The notes beneath the pieces were generated by a model. It was given only the letters and a program-made list of their open reading frames with translations. It was not told where the DNA came from and made no database searches. Shown piece by piece: positions 10,291-21,415 of a DNA stretch of 34,338 nt. The DNA lies in the NCBI GenBank assembly GCA_015493575.1, contig WGCX01000273.1:1-34338 (forward strand), given 5' to 3'. A program made the translations under genes and the position numbers. Source of the stretch: Desulfobacteraceae bacterium (lineage in GTDB: Bacteria; Desulfobacterota; Desulfobacteria; Desulfobacterales; Desulfobacteraceae). The stretch's first letter is position 1. Each line of letters opens with the position of its first letter.

Positions 10291-10992
10291 ATGCTTAGAA
10301 CGGATCTCACAAAAAAAAGCCCGGCTATCAGGATAATGGGTATGGAGAATCTTCACAAGGGAAAATTCGGGACAGTGCTTTCAAGAGCCGGAGTCGGCAA
10401 GACACAATTTCTTGTCCATGTTGCTCTTTCATGGCTTCTTGAAGGAGACAATATACTTCACATAAGCCTTGATGATCCAATGGATAAGATAAATATAAGA
10501 TATAAGGAAGCTTATTTTACCCTTGTCGACAGCATCGGATATGTTGATCCCCAGAAAGCACAGCGCCTGTGGGAAGATATTGATCTGTGCAAAACAGGAA
10601 TAAGTTACAATGAATCAACTTTTGCCCCTGAAAAATTAAGGGACTATCTGCATAGTTTTAAAAAAGAAGACTTGAGAATGCCAGCAATGATGGTTGTTGA
10701 CGGCCTGCATTTTGGCAGTGAAATGACTGGAGATTTCCTTGAAAACCTTGATAAACTCAAGGCCATATCCGATGATTTTTCCATTGCTTTATGGTTTTCA
10801 ATGCGGACCCACCGTGATGAGCCTTTAAGTGAAGATGGTTATCCAAAACCATTTGAAATCGTTGAGAAGCGTTTTGACAAAGCTGTTTTTCTAAATCCCA
10901 ATGAAAACATGATAGAGGCAGTTATATTAAAAGACGGCGAAAAAACCGATAAAAAATACCTTCTTGACCCTGCCACCATGATGATATATTGA
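10291..10992 (+). CDS. Uncharacterised RecA/KaiC-like P-loop ATPase
   Basis: Walker-A-like LSRAGVGKTQF and Walker-B-like MMVVDGLHF; RBS agaggtaaaaATG; otherwise unrecognised. Confidence 0.75.
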   Translation: MLRTDLTKKSPAIRIMGMENLHKGKFGTVLSRAGVGKTQFLVHVALSWLLEGDNILHISLDDPMDKINIRYKEAYFTLVDSIGYVDPQKAQRLWEDIDLCKTGISYNESTFAPEKLRDYLHSFKKEDLRMPAMMVVDGLHFGSEMTGDFLENLDKLKAISDDFSIALWFSMRTHRDEPLSEDGYPKPFEIVEKRFDKAVFLNPNENMIEAVILKDGEKTDKKYLLDPATMMIY

Positions 10993-11002
10993 TTATTTTC
11001 CT

Positions 11003-11034
11003 GAGCCTTCATTCTTTTGAAGGCTCTTTTTTTT
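11003..11034 (+). terminator. Rho-independent terminator of the ATPase gene
   Basis: gagccttca-ttcttt-tgaaggctc 9-bp perfect stem (11003-11011/11018-11026) followed by an 8-T run, 11 bp after the stop codon. Confidence 0.93.
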
Positions 11035-11100
11035 ATCATAATCTTTGATTGTTTGAGGTAAATCCAGGCCAATCCAGATCCGCCTCATATCGGTTATTTA
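11035..11100 (-). repeat. Repeat family A copy A2 (truncated/diverged)
   Basis: Reverse complement reads ataaccgatatgaggcggatctggatt...acctcaaacaatcaaagat, matching A1 and A7. Confidence 0.65.
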
Positions 11101-11116
11101 AAATTTTCGATCCTAA
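11097..11116 (+). repeat. Border motif TTTAAAATTTTCGATCCTAA
   Basis: 20-bp exact match to 20731-20750; near matches at 14500-14519 and 25986-26005. Confidence 0.8.
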
Positions 11117-11160
11117 TGTTTTACATAAAATTTATGTCTGAGATTTATATCCCACCTGCC

Positions 11161-11190
11161 TTGACTATGACTGTTTTATAGTGCTATTCT
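11161..11190 (+). promoter_or_regulatory. Candidate sigma70-type promoter
   Basis: TTGACT (11161-11166), 18-bp spacer, TATTCT (11185-11190), upstream of the actin-like gene. Confidence 0.3.
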
Positions 11191-11430
11191 CCATTCTTAA
11201 GAAAGAATTCCAAAAAAAACGGGCAAACACGCATTATAATCAAAAGAGATCTTTGTATAATGTTCAAATTAGTTTTCATGAATTTGTATTGGAAAAGGCT
11301 ATATTTTTAACCTCATGAATTTATAGAACTTTCTTGAGTGTTCAGTTGAGGTTGTCGTGGAAAACCGGCGATAAAGTTTGTTTTGCAAAGGTCTCACACA
11401 GGGAAACGGTCAAGCATAAGGAGAATAACC

Positions 11431-12597
11431 ATGGAAATTGTGGGAATTGATGTTGGATTTGGATTCACAAAAGCCTTTAACGGTAAAAATTCTGTTATTT
11501 TTAAATCACTTGTGGGAGATCCTGCGGATATACAGTTTAATTCTTCAATAGGGGAGAGTTCATCTGCCTCAAATCTTCATGTGACCATAGATAATAAATC
11601 GTATTTTGTAGGGAATTATGCGGAACTTCAATCCAACGTACGTGATTTTACACTTGATCAGAATAAATTGATAACGGATTTCGCTAAAATTCTTGCTGTC
11701 ACTGCAGCAGGAGTGTGCTGTGAAGATGTTACTTCCATGAATGTTGTTTCAGGCCTTCCCGTTGGATTTTTAAAAAGGGATTATAAAAAATTTACAGATA
11801 TTATACAGGGCAGCCATGAGATCACTTTCCATTACCAGAATGGAAAAGATGTCAGGAAAAAAATTCATATCAATAAAATTCATATGATCCCCCAGCCAAT
11901 CGGAAGTCTTTTTAACCTTATTATGAACGATAATGGGCAGATTGGAGACAAAACTCTTGCCATGCAGAAACTCGGAGTTGTTGATATAGGATTCAGAACA
12001 ACTGATTTCAGTATATTTGACCACCTTCAATATGTGGAAAGAAGCTCCACAACCATGGATACCGGTATATCAAAATGTTTTTCTGTGATTGCAAATAAGT
12101 TGAGGCGGGAAAGCGGTGTTAATATTGAACTTTACAGGATGTTTAAATATATTGAATCAGGCATGATAAAAATCAGGGGGAAAGAATATAATATTTCCAA
12201 TCTCAAACAAAGAGTTTATACCCACGCAGCTTCTGCCATTGCAGCGGATTTGAACAGGCTCTGGGAAGATGACTGGGATATCGATTCCATCATACTTTCA
12301 GGTGGTGGCAGCATGGAACTTGCAGAATATATTCAGTCCCGGGTGGAAGGAAATGTTATCCCTGTTTCAATAAATAAAGATGCAAGATTGAACAATGTCC
12401 AGGGCTATTTAAAATTCGGAAGGTATAAATGGGGATACACACCTTCATTATCCACCCATTCAGATGATAAAAATGGTGTCCGCACAGATAAAAAAAACGA
12501 TAATTATCAGGACCAAATTGTAAATGATTCCTCTGAAAATAAAAATAATGAAGTCAGTAAAAATCCAAAGGGGCTTGGATGGCTCAAACGACAATAA
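11431..12597 (+). CDS. ParM/StbA-like actin-family ATPase
   Basis: MEIVGIDVGFGFTKAFNG (phosphate 1), LGVVDIGFRTTDFSIF (phosphate 2), SIILSGGGSMELAEYI (adenosine motif); RBS taaggagaataaccATG. Track start at 11383 replaced with ATG 11431. Confidence 0.85.
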   Translation: MEIVGIDVGFGFTKAFNGKNSVIFKSLVGDPADIQFNSSIGESSSASNLHVTIDNKSYFVGNYAELQSNVRDFTLDQNKLITDFAKILAVTAAGVCCEDVTSMNVVSGLPVGFLKRDYKKFTDIIQGSHEITFHYQNGKDVRKKIHINKIHMIPQPIGSLFNLIMNDNGQIGDKTLAMQKLGVVDIGFRTTDFSIFDHLQYVERSSTTMDTGISKCFSVIANKLRRESGVNIELYRMFKYIESGMIKIRGKEYNISNLKQRVYTHAASAIAADLNRLWEDDWDIDSIILSGGGSMELAEYIQSRVEGNVIPVSINKDARLNNVQGYLKFGRYKWGYTPSLSTHSDDKNGVRTDKKNDNYQDQIVNDSSENKNNEVSKNPKGLGWLKRQ

Positions 12598-12633: not shown

Positions 12634-13398
12634 ATGAATAATAAAAGACTTACTGATATTCTTAACAGTATAGCAGAGGGCAGTCTGTCTCCCACAGATG
12701 CGGAAAATCTCCTTGACAAACTTGCCTTTGAGGATATCAATTATGCACATATTGACCATCACCGTTCCATTAGAAAAGGCTTCCCCGAGGTTATATTCGG
12801 TCAGGGCAAAACCAGTTCCCAGATTATTGGCATTATTAATTCAATGTTAAACGAAGAAGATATAATCATGGTGACCAGAATTGAAAAAGAAAAAGCCATG
12901 ATTGTGAAAAAGGAATTTGAAAAGGCCTGCTTTCATGAGGATGCACGCATCCTTCTGATAAAACAGAAAGAACCTGAAATTTTGGCAAAAGGAGAAATTC
13001 TTGTTATATCGGCCGGAACTTCGGACATACCCGTAGCAAAGGAAGCTTTTATTACCGCAGGCATAATGGGGAACAAGGTATCTTCTGTTTTTGATGTAGG
13101 GGTTGCAGGAATACACAGGCTTTTTGCCCACAGGAAATTAATTGAACAGGCCTCAGTTCTCATTGTGGTTGCAGGTATGGAAGGAGCTCTGCCAAGTGTG
13201 GTTGCAGGTATGGTTAAAGCGCCTGTTATTGCAGTGCCAACAAGTATCGGCTATGGGACCAATCTCGGCGGAATGACAGCTCTTCTTGGCATGCTTAATT
13301 CCTGTTGCCCCAATATTGCAGTGGTAAATATTGATAATGGATTCGGAGCCGGTTATATGGCTTCAGCAATCAATCAGATGACAATACCATGTGGATGA
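12634..13398 (+). CDS. larB: Nickel-pincer cofactor biosynthesis protein LarB
   Basis: HIDHHRSIRKGFPEVIFGQGKT, SAGTSDIPVAKEAF, VVAGMEGALPSVVAGMVKAPVIAVPTSIGYGTNLGG...LNSCCPNIAVVNIDNGFGAGYMA. Confidence 0.93.
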   Translation: MNNKRLTDILNSIAEGSLSPTDAENLLDKLAFEDINYAHIDHHRSIRKGFPEVIFGQGKTSSQIIGIINSMLNEEDIIMVTRIEKEKAMIVKKEFEKACFHEDARILLIKQKEPEILAKGEILVISAGTSDIPVAKEAFITAGIMGNKVSSVFDVGVAGIHRLFAHRKLIEQASVLIVVAGMEGALPSVVAGMVKAPVIAVPTSIGYGTNLGGMTALLGMLNSCCPNIAVVNIDNGFGAGYMASAINQMTIPCG

Positions 13399-20912: not shown

Positions 20913-20944
20913 AGGCACTAATGAAATACGCAAGGAGAAGAAAT

Positions 20945-21415
20945 ATGAAACAGAAATTTAGATTTGAGATTGATCATGACAATGATATTCTAACCCTTTT
21001 TGAATCAGCAGAGGCTGATGCAGGTACATTTTTTCCTGTTCATAATGAAAAATACGGTTTAAAGGAAATAAAGGACATTGTTTATGGGGAGGGCAGAGAT
21101 GCATTTATCGAAAAATTGAGGAAAAAAAATCTTTTCCCCCCCTTTGACCTTGCTTCCAAGCTTTTTGATACTGTTAAAGAATTTTTTGAGAGTGGAACGG
21201 AAAATAAGCTTGTTGTCGATTATGATGATGCTGAATCATTTCCGGTACTGGAAGCAGAAATAGAAGATGAGATAGAGGAGATTGATGAAATCGTTGAGGT
21301 TGATAAACTTCTCGATGAAGACGGAAGTGTAAGTGAGGATGATATCAAGGAAATAGATTCCGATGATGATACACCAAAATTCAAACTGGAAGATAACTCT
21401 GAATTTGAGAAGTAA
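20945..21415 (+). CDS. Hypothetical protein with acidic low-complexity C-terminus
   Basis: RBS caaggagaagaaatATG; C-terminus EAEIEDEIEEIDEIVEVDKLLDEDGSVSEDDIKEIDSDDDTPKFKLEDNSEF; directly upstream of argS. Confidence 0.75.
   Translation: MKQKFRFEIDHDNDILTLFESAEADAGTFFPVHNEKYGLKEIKDIVYGEGRDAFIEKLRKKNLFPPFDLASKLFDTVKEFFESGTENKLVVDYDDAESFPVLEAEIEDEIEEIDEIVEVDKLLDEDGSVSEDDIKEIDSDDDTPKFKLEDNSEFEK

Follow-up and report, generated by a model that had tools for sequence, protein, structure and literature searches.

A chromosomal ParM-like actin family of sulfate reducers without an adjacent ParR-type partner and with a docking-like C-terminal peptide in one clade

Introduction

Plasmid ParMs of the pCBH and pSK41 type serve segregation as part of ParMRC systems. 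Genome-encoded ParMs are known from Desulfitobacterium (Dh-cParM1) and Clostridium (Cb-cParM); they are chromosomal, conserved across species and intact in their motifs, a role beyond plasmid segregation has been proposed for them, and those studied come with a cParR (PMC12270681). FcmB of filamentous cyanobacteria is a ParM-derived shape protein, i.e. a chromosomal actin from a plasmid-partition group with a role in cell shape; it is membrane-associated through a partner and is followed directly by the partner gene fcmC (PMC12645912). The PRTRC system protein D (TIGR03739) is also ParM-like, yet usually plasmid-borne among the matches listed. Other chromosomal actin-like proteins of the Desulfobacterota are Mad28, MamK and Bbp (PMC12713370, PMC12748827, PMC10580974), of which Mad28 and MamK are encoded in magnetosome clusters and Bbp is placed between MamK and MreB.

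The window analyzed here is a stretch of 34,338 nucleotides from a Desulfobacteraceae bacterium (assembly GCA_015493575.1, contig WGCX01000273.1). It encodes, at positions 11431-12597 of the forward strand, an actin-like protein of 388 amino acids with an ATG start. The protein shares the ALP_N/MreB-like_C actin fold and the nucleotide motifs with plasmid ParMs but is chromosomal and monocistronic, has no adjacent parR or parC, and carries a C-terminal linker with a conserved peptide. It is a cParM in the broad sense, being a ParM-like actin that is chromosomal and conserved in its lineage. Unlike the cParMs studied, the actin family described here occurs in many families of the Desulfobacterota, is distant in sequence (profile 1.8e-22), has a tail motif and lacks, in the loci compared, the cParR in the cassette that is usual in cParMs and reported absent in some. 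While FcmB is followed by its partner gene, larB lies downstream of the window actin, and larB or unrelated genes lie downstream of its relatives. No paper describing this actin family was found in the open-licence literature.

Results

An intact actin core of the ParM type

The core of the protein is formed by the Pfam domains ALP_N (PF17989, E 4.6e-36, residues 5-158) and MreB-like_C (PF21522, E 1.8e-19, residues 183-300), and matches were obtained to ALP_N but not to the MreB/MamK-type Pfam models. The best solved relative is the pCBH ParM (3.2e-22; profile 2.5e-40), and other solved structures with matches are Dh-cParM1 (1e-9), a pSK41-type ParM, CorM and Ta0583. The scores for the NCBIfam ParM model NF010498 (105.6 bits), the FcmB model (45.8 bits) and TIGR03739 (90.8 bits) are below the respective cut-offs of 417, 300 and 214.8. 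The actin is found on the ALP_N/ParM side, and from Mad28, MamK and Bbp it is set apart by their descriptions. Separate FtsA and MreB genes are present in the same genome and the window actin is neither of the two. An AlphaFold2 model built with only five sequences was poor (mean pLDDT 48.7).

The initial annotation had recognized the actin-fold nucleotide motifs, and their residues proved to be invariant in an alignment of 53 orthologues that extends to sequences of 38% identity (Table 1). The catalytic residues were checked for degradation and are intact across the same set. Within the clade that carries the tryptophan-containing tail, the mean pairwise identity of the core is 0.73.

Table 1. 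Features of the actin locus, in window coordinates
Feature	Position	Strand	Basis or remark
Terminator-like hairpin with T run	11003-11026	+	between the ATPase gene (10291-10992) and the actin gene
Sigma-70-like promoter TTGACT-18-TATTCT, TG before -10	11161-11190	+	corresponds to the conserved upstream promoter of family orthologues
Ribosome-binding site AAGGAG	11418-11423	+	sequence
Actin-fold core, residues 1-337 (ALP_N and MreB-like_C)	11431..12441	+	Pfam
Phosphate-1 motif IDVGFGFTKA, residues 6-15	11446..11475	+	D7, G9, F10, G11, T13 and K14 invariant, 53 orthologues
Connect-1 region PQPIG, residues 154-158	11890..11904	+	P154, Q155, P156 and G158 invariant, 53 orthologues
Phosphate-2 motif VVDIGFRTTD, residues 183-192	11977..12006	+	D185, G187, F188, T190 and D192 invariant, 53 orthologues
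Adenosine motif LSGGGSM, residues 289-295	12295..12315	+	G291-G293 invariant, 53 orthologues
Hypervariable, probably disordered linker, about residues 338-379	12442..12567	+	mean pairwise identity 0.14
Conserved C-terminal peptide KGLGWLKRQ, residues 380-388	12568..12594	+	alignment A2
larB (nickel-pincer cofactor biosynthesis), next gene downstream of actin	12634..13398	+	NCBIfam LarB, 1.2e-88

A gene with its own promoter

As read by eye, members of the window's family share a promoter of the type TTGACt-(17-18)-TAtcTa at a distance of 70-100 bp upstream of the actin gene, and other families show the type TTTTGACTTTT...TATAA. The window promoter lies ~240 bp upstream of the actin start, compared with the usual 70-100 bp in relatives, and the leader from promoter to start codon (11191-11417) is ~150 nt longer than in relatives. 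A riboswitch or other RNA element in this leader was rejected because no Rfam match exceeded the threshold; the best weak matches correspond to the terminator at 11003-11026.

Gene neighborhoods were compared across 40 loci, and the arrangement of ATPase, actin and larB genes that the initial annotation had singled out did not hold up as a unit. A terminator intervenes between the first two genes, and the RecA/KaiC-like ATPase of unclear family is found beside no other orthologue among the compared loci, which also revealed no conserved upstream gene family. The adjacency of larB is a feature of close relatives: it follows the actin gene in the majority of loci from the window's family and in a single further family, f18, and the downstream gene of the other families is unrelated or points in the opposite direction. 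On these grounds the actin was not linked functionally to either the ATPase or larB, and larB is regarded as a neighbor that is not thought to be part of the actin system. The actin core is also more conserved than the adjacent LarB (e.g. 82% versus 74%). It is the promoter, not the neighbors, that travels with the actin gene, and the gene has its own conserved promoter.

The 34-kb contig carries the core genes queA, tgt, fusA, argS, gatA and mutL (named from their translations) and two tRNA-Ser genes. An acidic 164-aa protein without a Pfam match is encoded upstream of argS (20921-21415). The actin gene is present as a single copy in its genome.

Absence of a partition cassette

It had been proposed from the window alone that this actin lacks an adjacent ParR-like partner, and this is borne out. 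No ParR-type gene is located directly downstream, where larB is the next gene, and the 440-bp upstream gap contains no parC-like multi-copy repeat, with only two-copy, chance-like repeats in 10990-11460. No match to Plasmid_stab_B (PF10784) above the cut-off was obtained in the genome, which is 88.75% complete; the sensitivity of PF10784 is low, with one of five small downstream genes of mobile relatives giving even a sub-threshold match. An ORF of 62-141 aa overlaps or abuts the actin gene downstream in five plasmid/phage relatives and one viral contig (6/6), and for the orthologues a weak small downstream candidate was seen in 1 of 81 loci.

ParB, MreB and FtsZ are each encoded in all well-assembled genomes of the family (42/42), ParB with or without the actin. 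As ParB is universal in these genomes regardless of the actin, chromosome segregation is not likely to be the job of this protein, and the presence of all three proteins throughout indicates that the actin does not replace the segregation, shape or division systems.

Distribution and descent

The window's family is represented by 86 genomes, of which 54 gave matches to the actin: 53 contain a complete or partial gene and one has a pseudogene. The matches cover 12 of the 14 genera. For the order, 55 of 194 sampled genomes gave matches, about 49 of which are orthologues, and nearly all are single copy. Scattered members occur in other classes of the phylum and in Ghiorsea (Pseudomonadota). Identities amount to 44-77% within the phylum (46-77% across the family and order counts) and 40% in Ghiorsea, and the best plasmid, phage and viral contig sequences reach 28%, 28% and 31%. 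The tree places the family in a clade apart from plasmid and phage actin-like proteins, with long branches between them. The small outgroup sample and the long branches make the deep placement in this tree uncertain.

Actin distances track ftsZ distances within the family (Mantel r 0.86, 0 of 2000 permutations). The actin gene is dispensable, as presence on the family ftsZ tree requires 10 changes by parsimony and individual copies are decaying. The decaying copies belong to one subclade: G014, a complete genome of 4.0 Mb, has only a pseudogene (locus L098), and in L099 (G028) a change of frame and a stop codon interrupt the tail. Additional ParM-like genes were noted outside the orthologous set. 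Three loci of family f69 (L087, L088 and L089) show a second divergent paralogue (31-36% identity) in a partly syntenic neighborhood of its own, beside the orthologue in the same genomes. The single-contig 6.9-Mb genome G200 (L090, L091) contains five distant ParM-like genes (22-28% identity), two of which are adjoined by a related small gene of about 110 aa.

A possible functional association was seen with flagella. Within the family, genomes with the actin tend strongly to encode FlhA as well (Fisher 2e-7 for genomes of at least 85% completeness outside genus g3; logistic test given genome size 7e-7), and the co-occurrence is weak in the order (p 0.013). On the ftsZ tree, about 2-4 independent pairs were concordant versus about 1 (p 0.125-1). 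This flagellar link is a lead that is strong by simple counts and unsupported after correction for relatedness. Genus g3 is flagellated and does not contain the actin.

A variable linker that ends in a conserved peptide

The protein had initially been described as carrying a charged, probably disordered tail of ~45 aa. Charge and disorder are supported (34% charged residues, few hydrophobics and a disorder-promoting fraction of 0.83 in the linker of the window protein), but the tail is not merely disordered, as it ends in a conserved peptide. Its last nine residues, KGL(S/A/G)WL(R/K)RQ, have a mean pairwise identity of 0.64 versus 0.14 in the linker, with W384-L385 invariant in the 22 aligned sequences of alignment A2 and KGLsWLRRQ as the consensus of the window's family. 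The motif is a clade trait of the families f1, f14 and f47; L101 has lost it secondarily, and in L099 it is disrupted. The loss in L101 concerns the small genome G001, where the actin gene is located ~4 kb from ftsZ. Retention of the motif in f14 (L072/L036), where larB is not adjacent, argues for a constraint at the protein level and against an explanation by overlapping larB signals. Judged by its sequence pattern, the combination of a variable linker with a conserved terminal peptide has the build of a docking motif.

An acidic conserved tail, EIExIxExELSxV or (TL)EEIEELVEE, is present instead in several further families of the order (L052, L053, L055, L058-L062 and L085), suggesting a second docking mode. 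Some other families have short tails.

Discussion

The protein is reasonably likely to be an ATP-driven, chromosome-resident ParM-like actin of the cell's own cytoskeleton, not of a plasmid-partition cassette, with a filament whose tail would dock to a partner from another locus. Like its relatives, the window protein would bind ATP and polymerize into filaments. The disordered linker may then, in the window's family, carry the KGLsWLRRQ peptide outward from the filament, and many copies along the polymer could dock by avidity to this partner, which may be the membrane or a protein involved in division or polarity. Such docking would position or link the filament. The idea of a cell-biological filament voiced in the initial annotation is supported with respect to a chromosomal, vertically inherited and intact actin, and filament formation itself is extrapolated from relatives.

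Two rival explanations concern the relation of the gene to plasmids. The window copy might be a recent, functionless plasmid or phage remnant, for which the degrading copies in one subclade (the G014 pseudogene and the L099 tail) could be cited. This is highly improbable, and the recent-remnant reading of the window copy is effectively refuted: catalytic residues are invariant across families, the signal of vertical inheritance is strong, the promoter is conserved and conservation exceeds that of LarB. The initial suggestion of a plasmid-derived remnant with a new role likewise runs counter to an intact, strongly conserved gene that is inherited with ftsZ, resides among core genes behind its own conserved promoter and is separated by long branches from mobile relatives; that the family as a whole arose long ago from a plasmid gene is conceivable. 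The actin could also drive the partition of chromosome or plasmids together with a divergent ParR and a centromere encoded elsewhere. Its closest characterized relatives are ParMs, and among chromosomal ParMs there are some with a functional cParR and parC and others that seem to lack a nearby ParR (PMC12270681). ParRs are too divergent for reliable detection, so that a distant ParR elsewhere in the genome is possible. We nevertheless regard partition as distinctly unlikely, given a locus without a small adjacent gene, repeats or a Plasmid_stab_B match over the cut-off, a ParB that is already universal in well-assembled genomes, and a contig with chromosomal core genes.

If the actin is a cytoskeletal filament with a docking tail, the binding partner of the tail has to be considered. 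As a lead, and a sub-case of this preferred explanation with a named partner, the peptide may mimic the C-terminal peptide of FtsZ, by which the filament would bind receptors of the FtsZ tail (FtsA, MinC and the like) and couple to or compete with the Z-ring. The E. coli FtsZ tail, DYLDIPAFLRKQAD, is bound by ZipA, FtsA, MinC, ZapD and SlmA, and its residues I374 and L378 are critical (PMC4117426). FtsZ C-termini in 30 family genomes end in (V/I)PTFLRRKAD and the actin tails in GLSWLRRQS/N or GLAWLRRQNA, at a near-equal distance from the C-terminus. In both proteins a disordered, variable linker precedes a short conserved aromatic-Leu-Arg-Arg peptide, and the aromatic-Leu-basic-basic core at the extreme C-terminus is present in the actin tail. 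Many family tails score 12-18 against TFLRRKA (BLOSUM), and among 404 other C-termini only FtsZ exceeds 13. However, FtsZ is a tubulin, and the actin tail does not retain the Ile-Pro portion of the FtsZ core: the invariant Leu corresponds to L378, but the position of I374 aligns with Gly in most members and the Pro is missing. Deviating members end in GLAWLKGNRV, GRGWLKGSRT or SMGWLRK, the window tail GLGWLKRQ ends early and has a BLOSUM score no better than background, and the comparison was chosen post hoc, after the motif had been seen. Mimicry of FtsZ is therefore a tentative and rather unlikely proposal, and we are slightly more hesitant about its wider form, in which a widespread actin of sulfate reducers with an FtsZ C-terminal peptide mimic plugs its filament directly into the receptors of tubulin-based division. 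Still more doubtful is the view that the filament is held at the membrane by the tail, acting as a short amphipathic targeting sequence of the kind found in FtsA or MinD. The tail is basic and would place Leu-Trp-Leu on one face of a helix, an actin anchored by its tail has a precedent in FtsA, and polymer avidity might offset the shortness of the anchor. Yet the tail has only three bulky hydrophobics, the membrane helices that FtsA has in these genomes (RMKQWFKDII) are of greater length and unlike it, and 53-64 of 404 other C-termini reach the score of the actin motif against these helices; an FtsA-type membrane helix was rejected as a poor match. Among the possible binding modes of the tail, FtsZ mimicry ranks above membrane anchoring, and the largest share falls to a protein partner of another kind.

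Taken from its sequence features, the actin thus represents an intact, vertically inherited chromosomal ParM-like family without a cis partner and with a clade-specific, docking-like peptide, and it probably belongs to the cell's own skeleton as a component not described before. Chromosomal ParM-like actins with non-plasmid roles, such as cParM and FcmB, are only now being recognized. The family described here adds one that is distributed over dozens of sulfate-reducer families of environmental importance and has no cis-encoded partner. The putative docking site, a short C-terminal peptide in one clade, makes the discovery of a partner directly testable.
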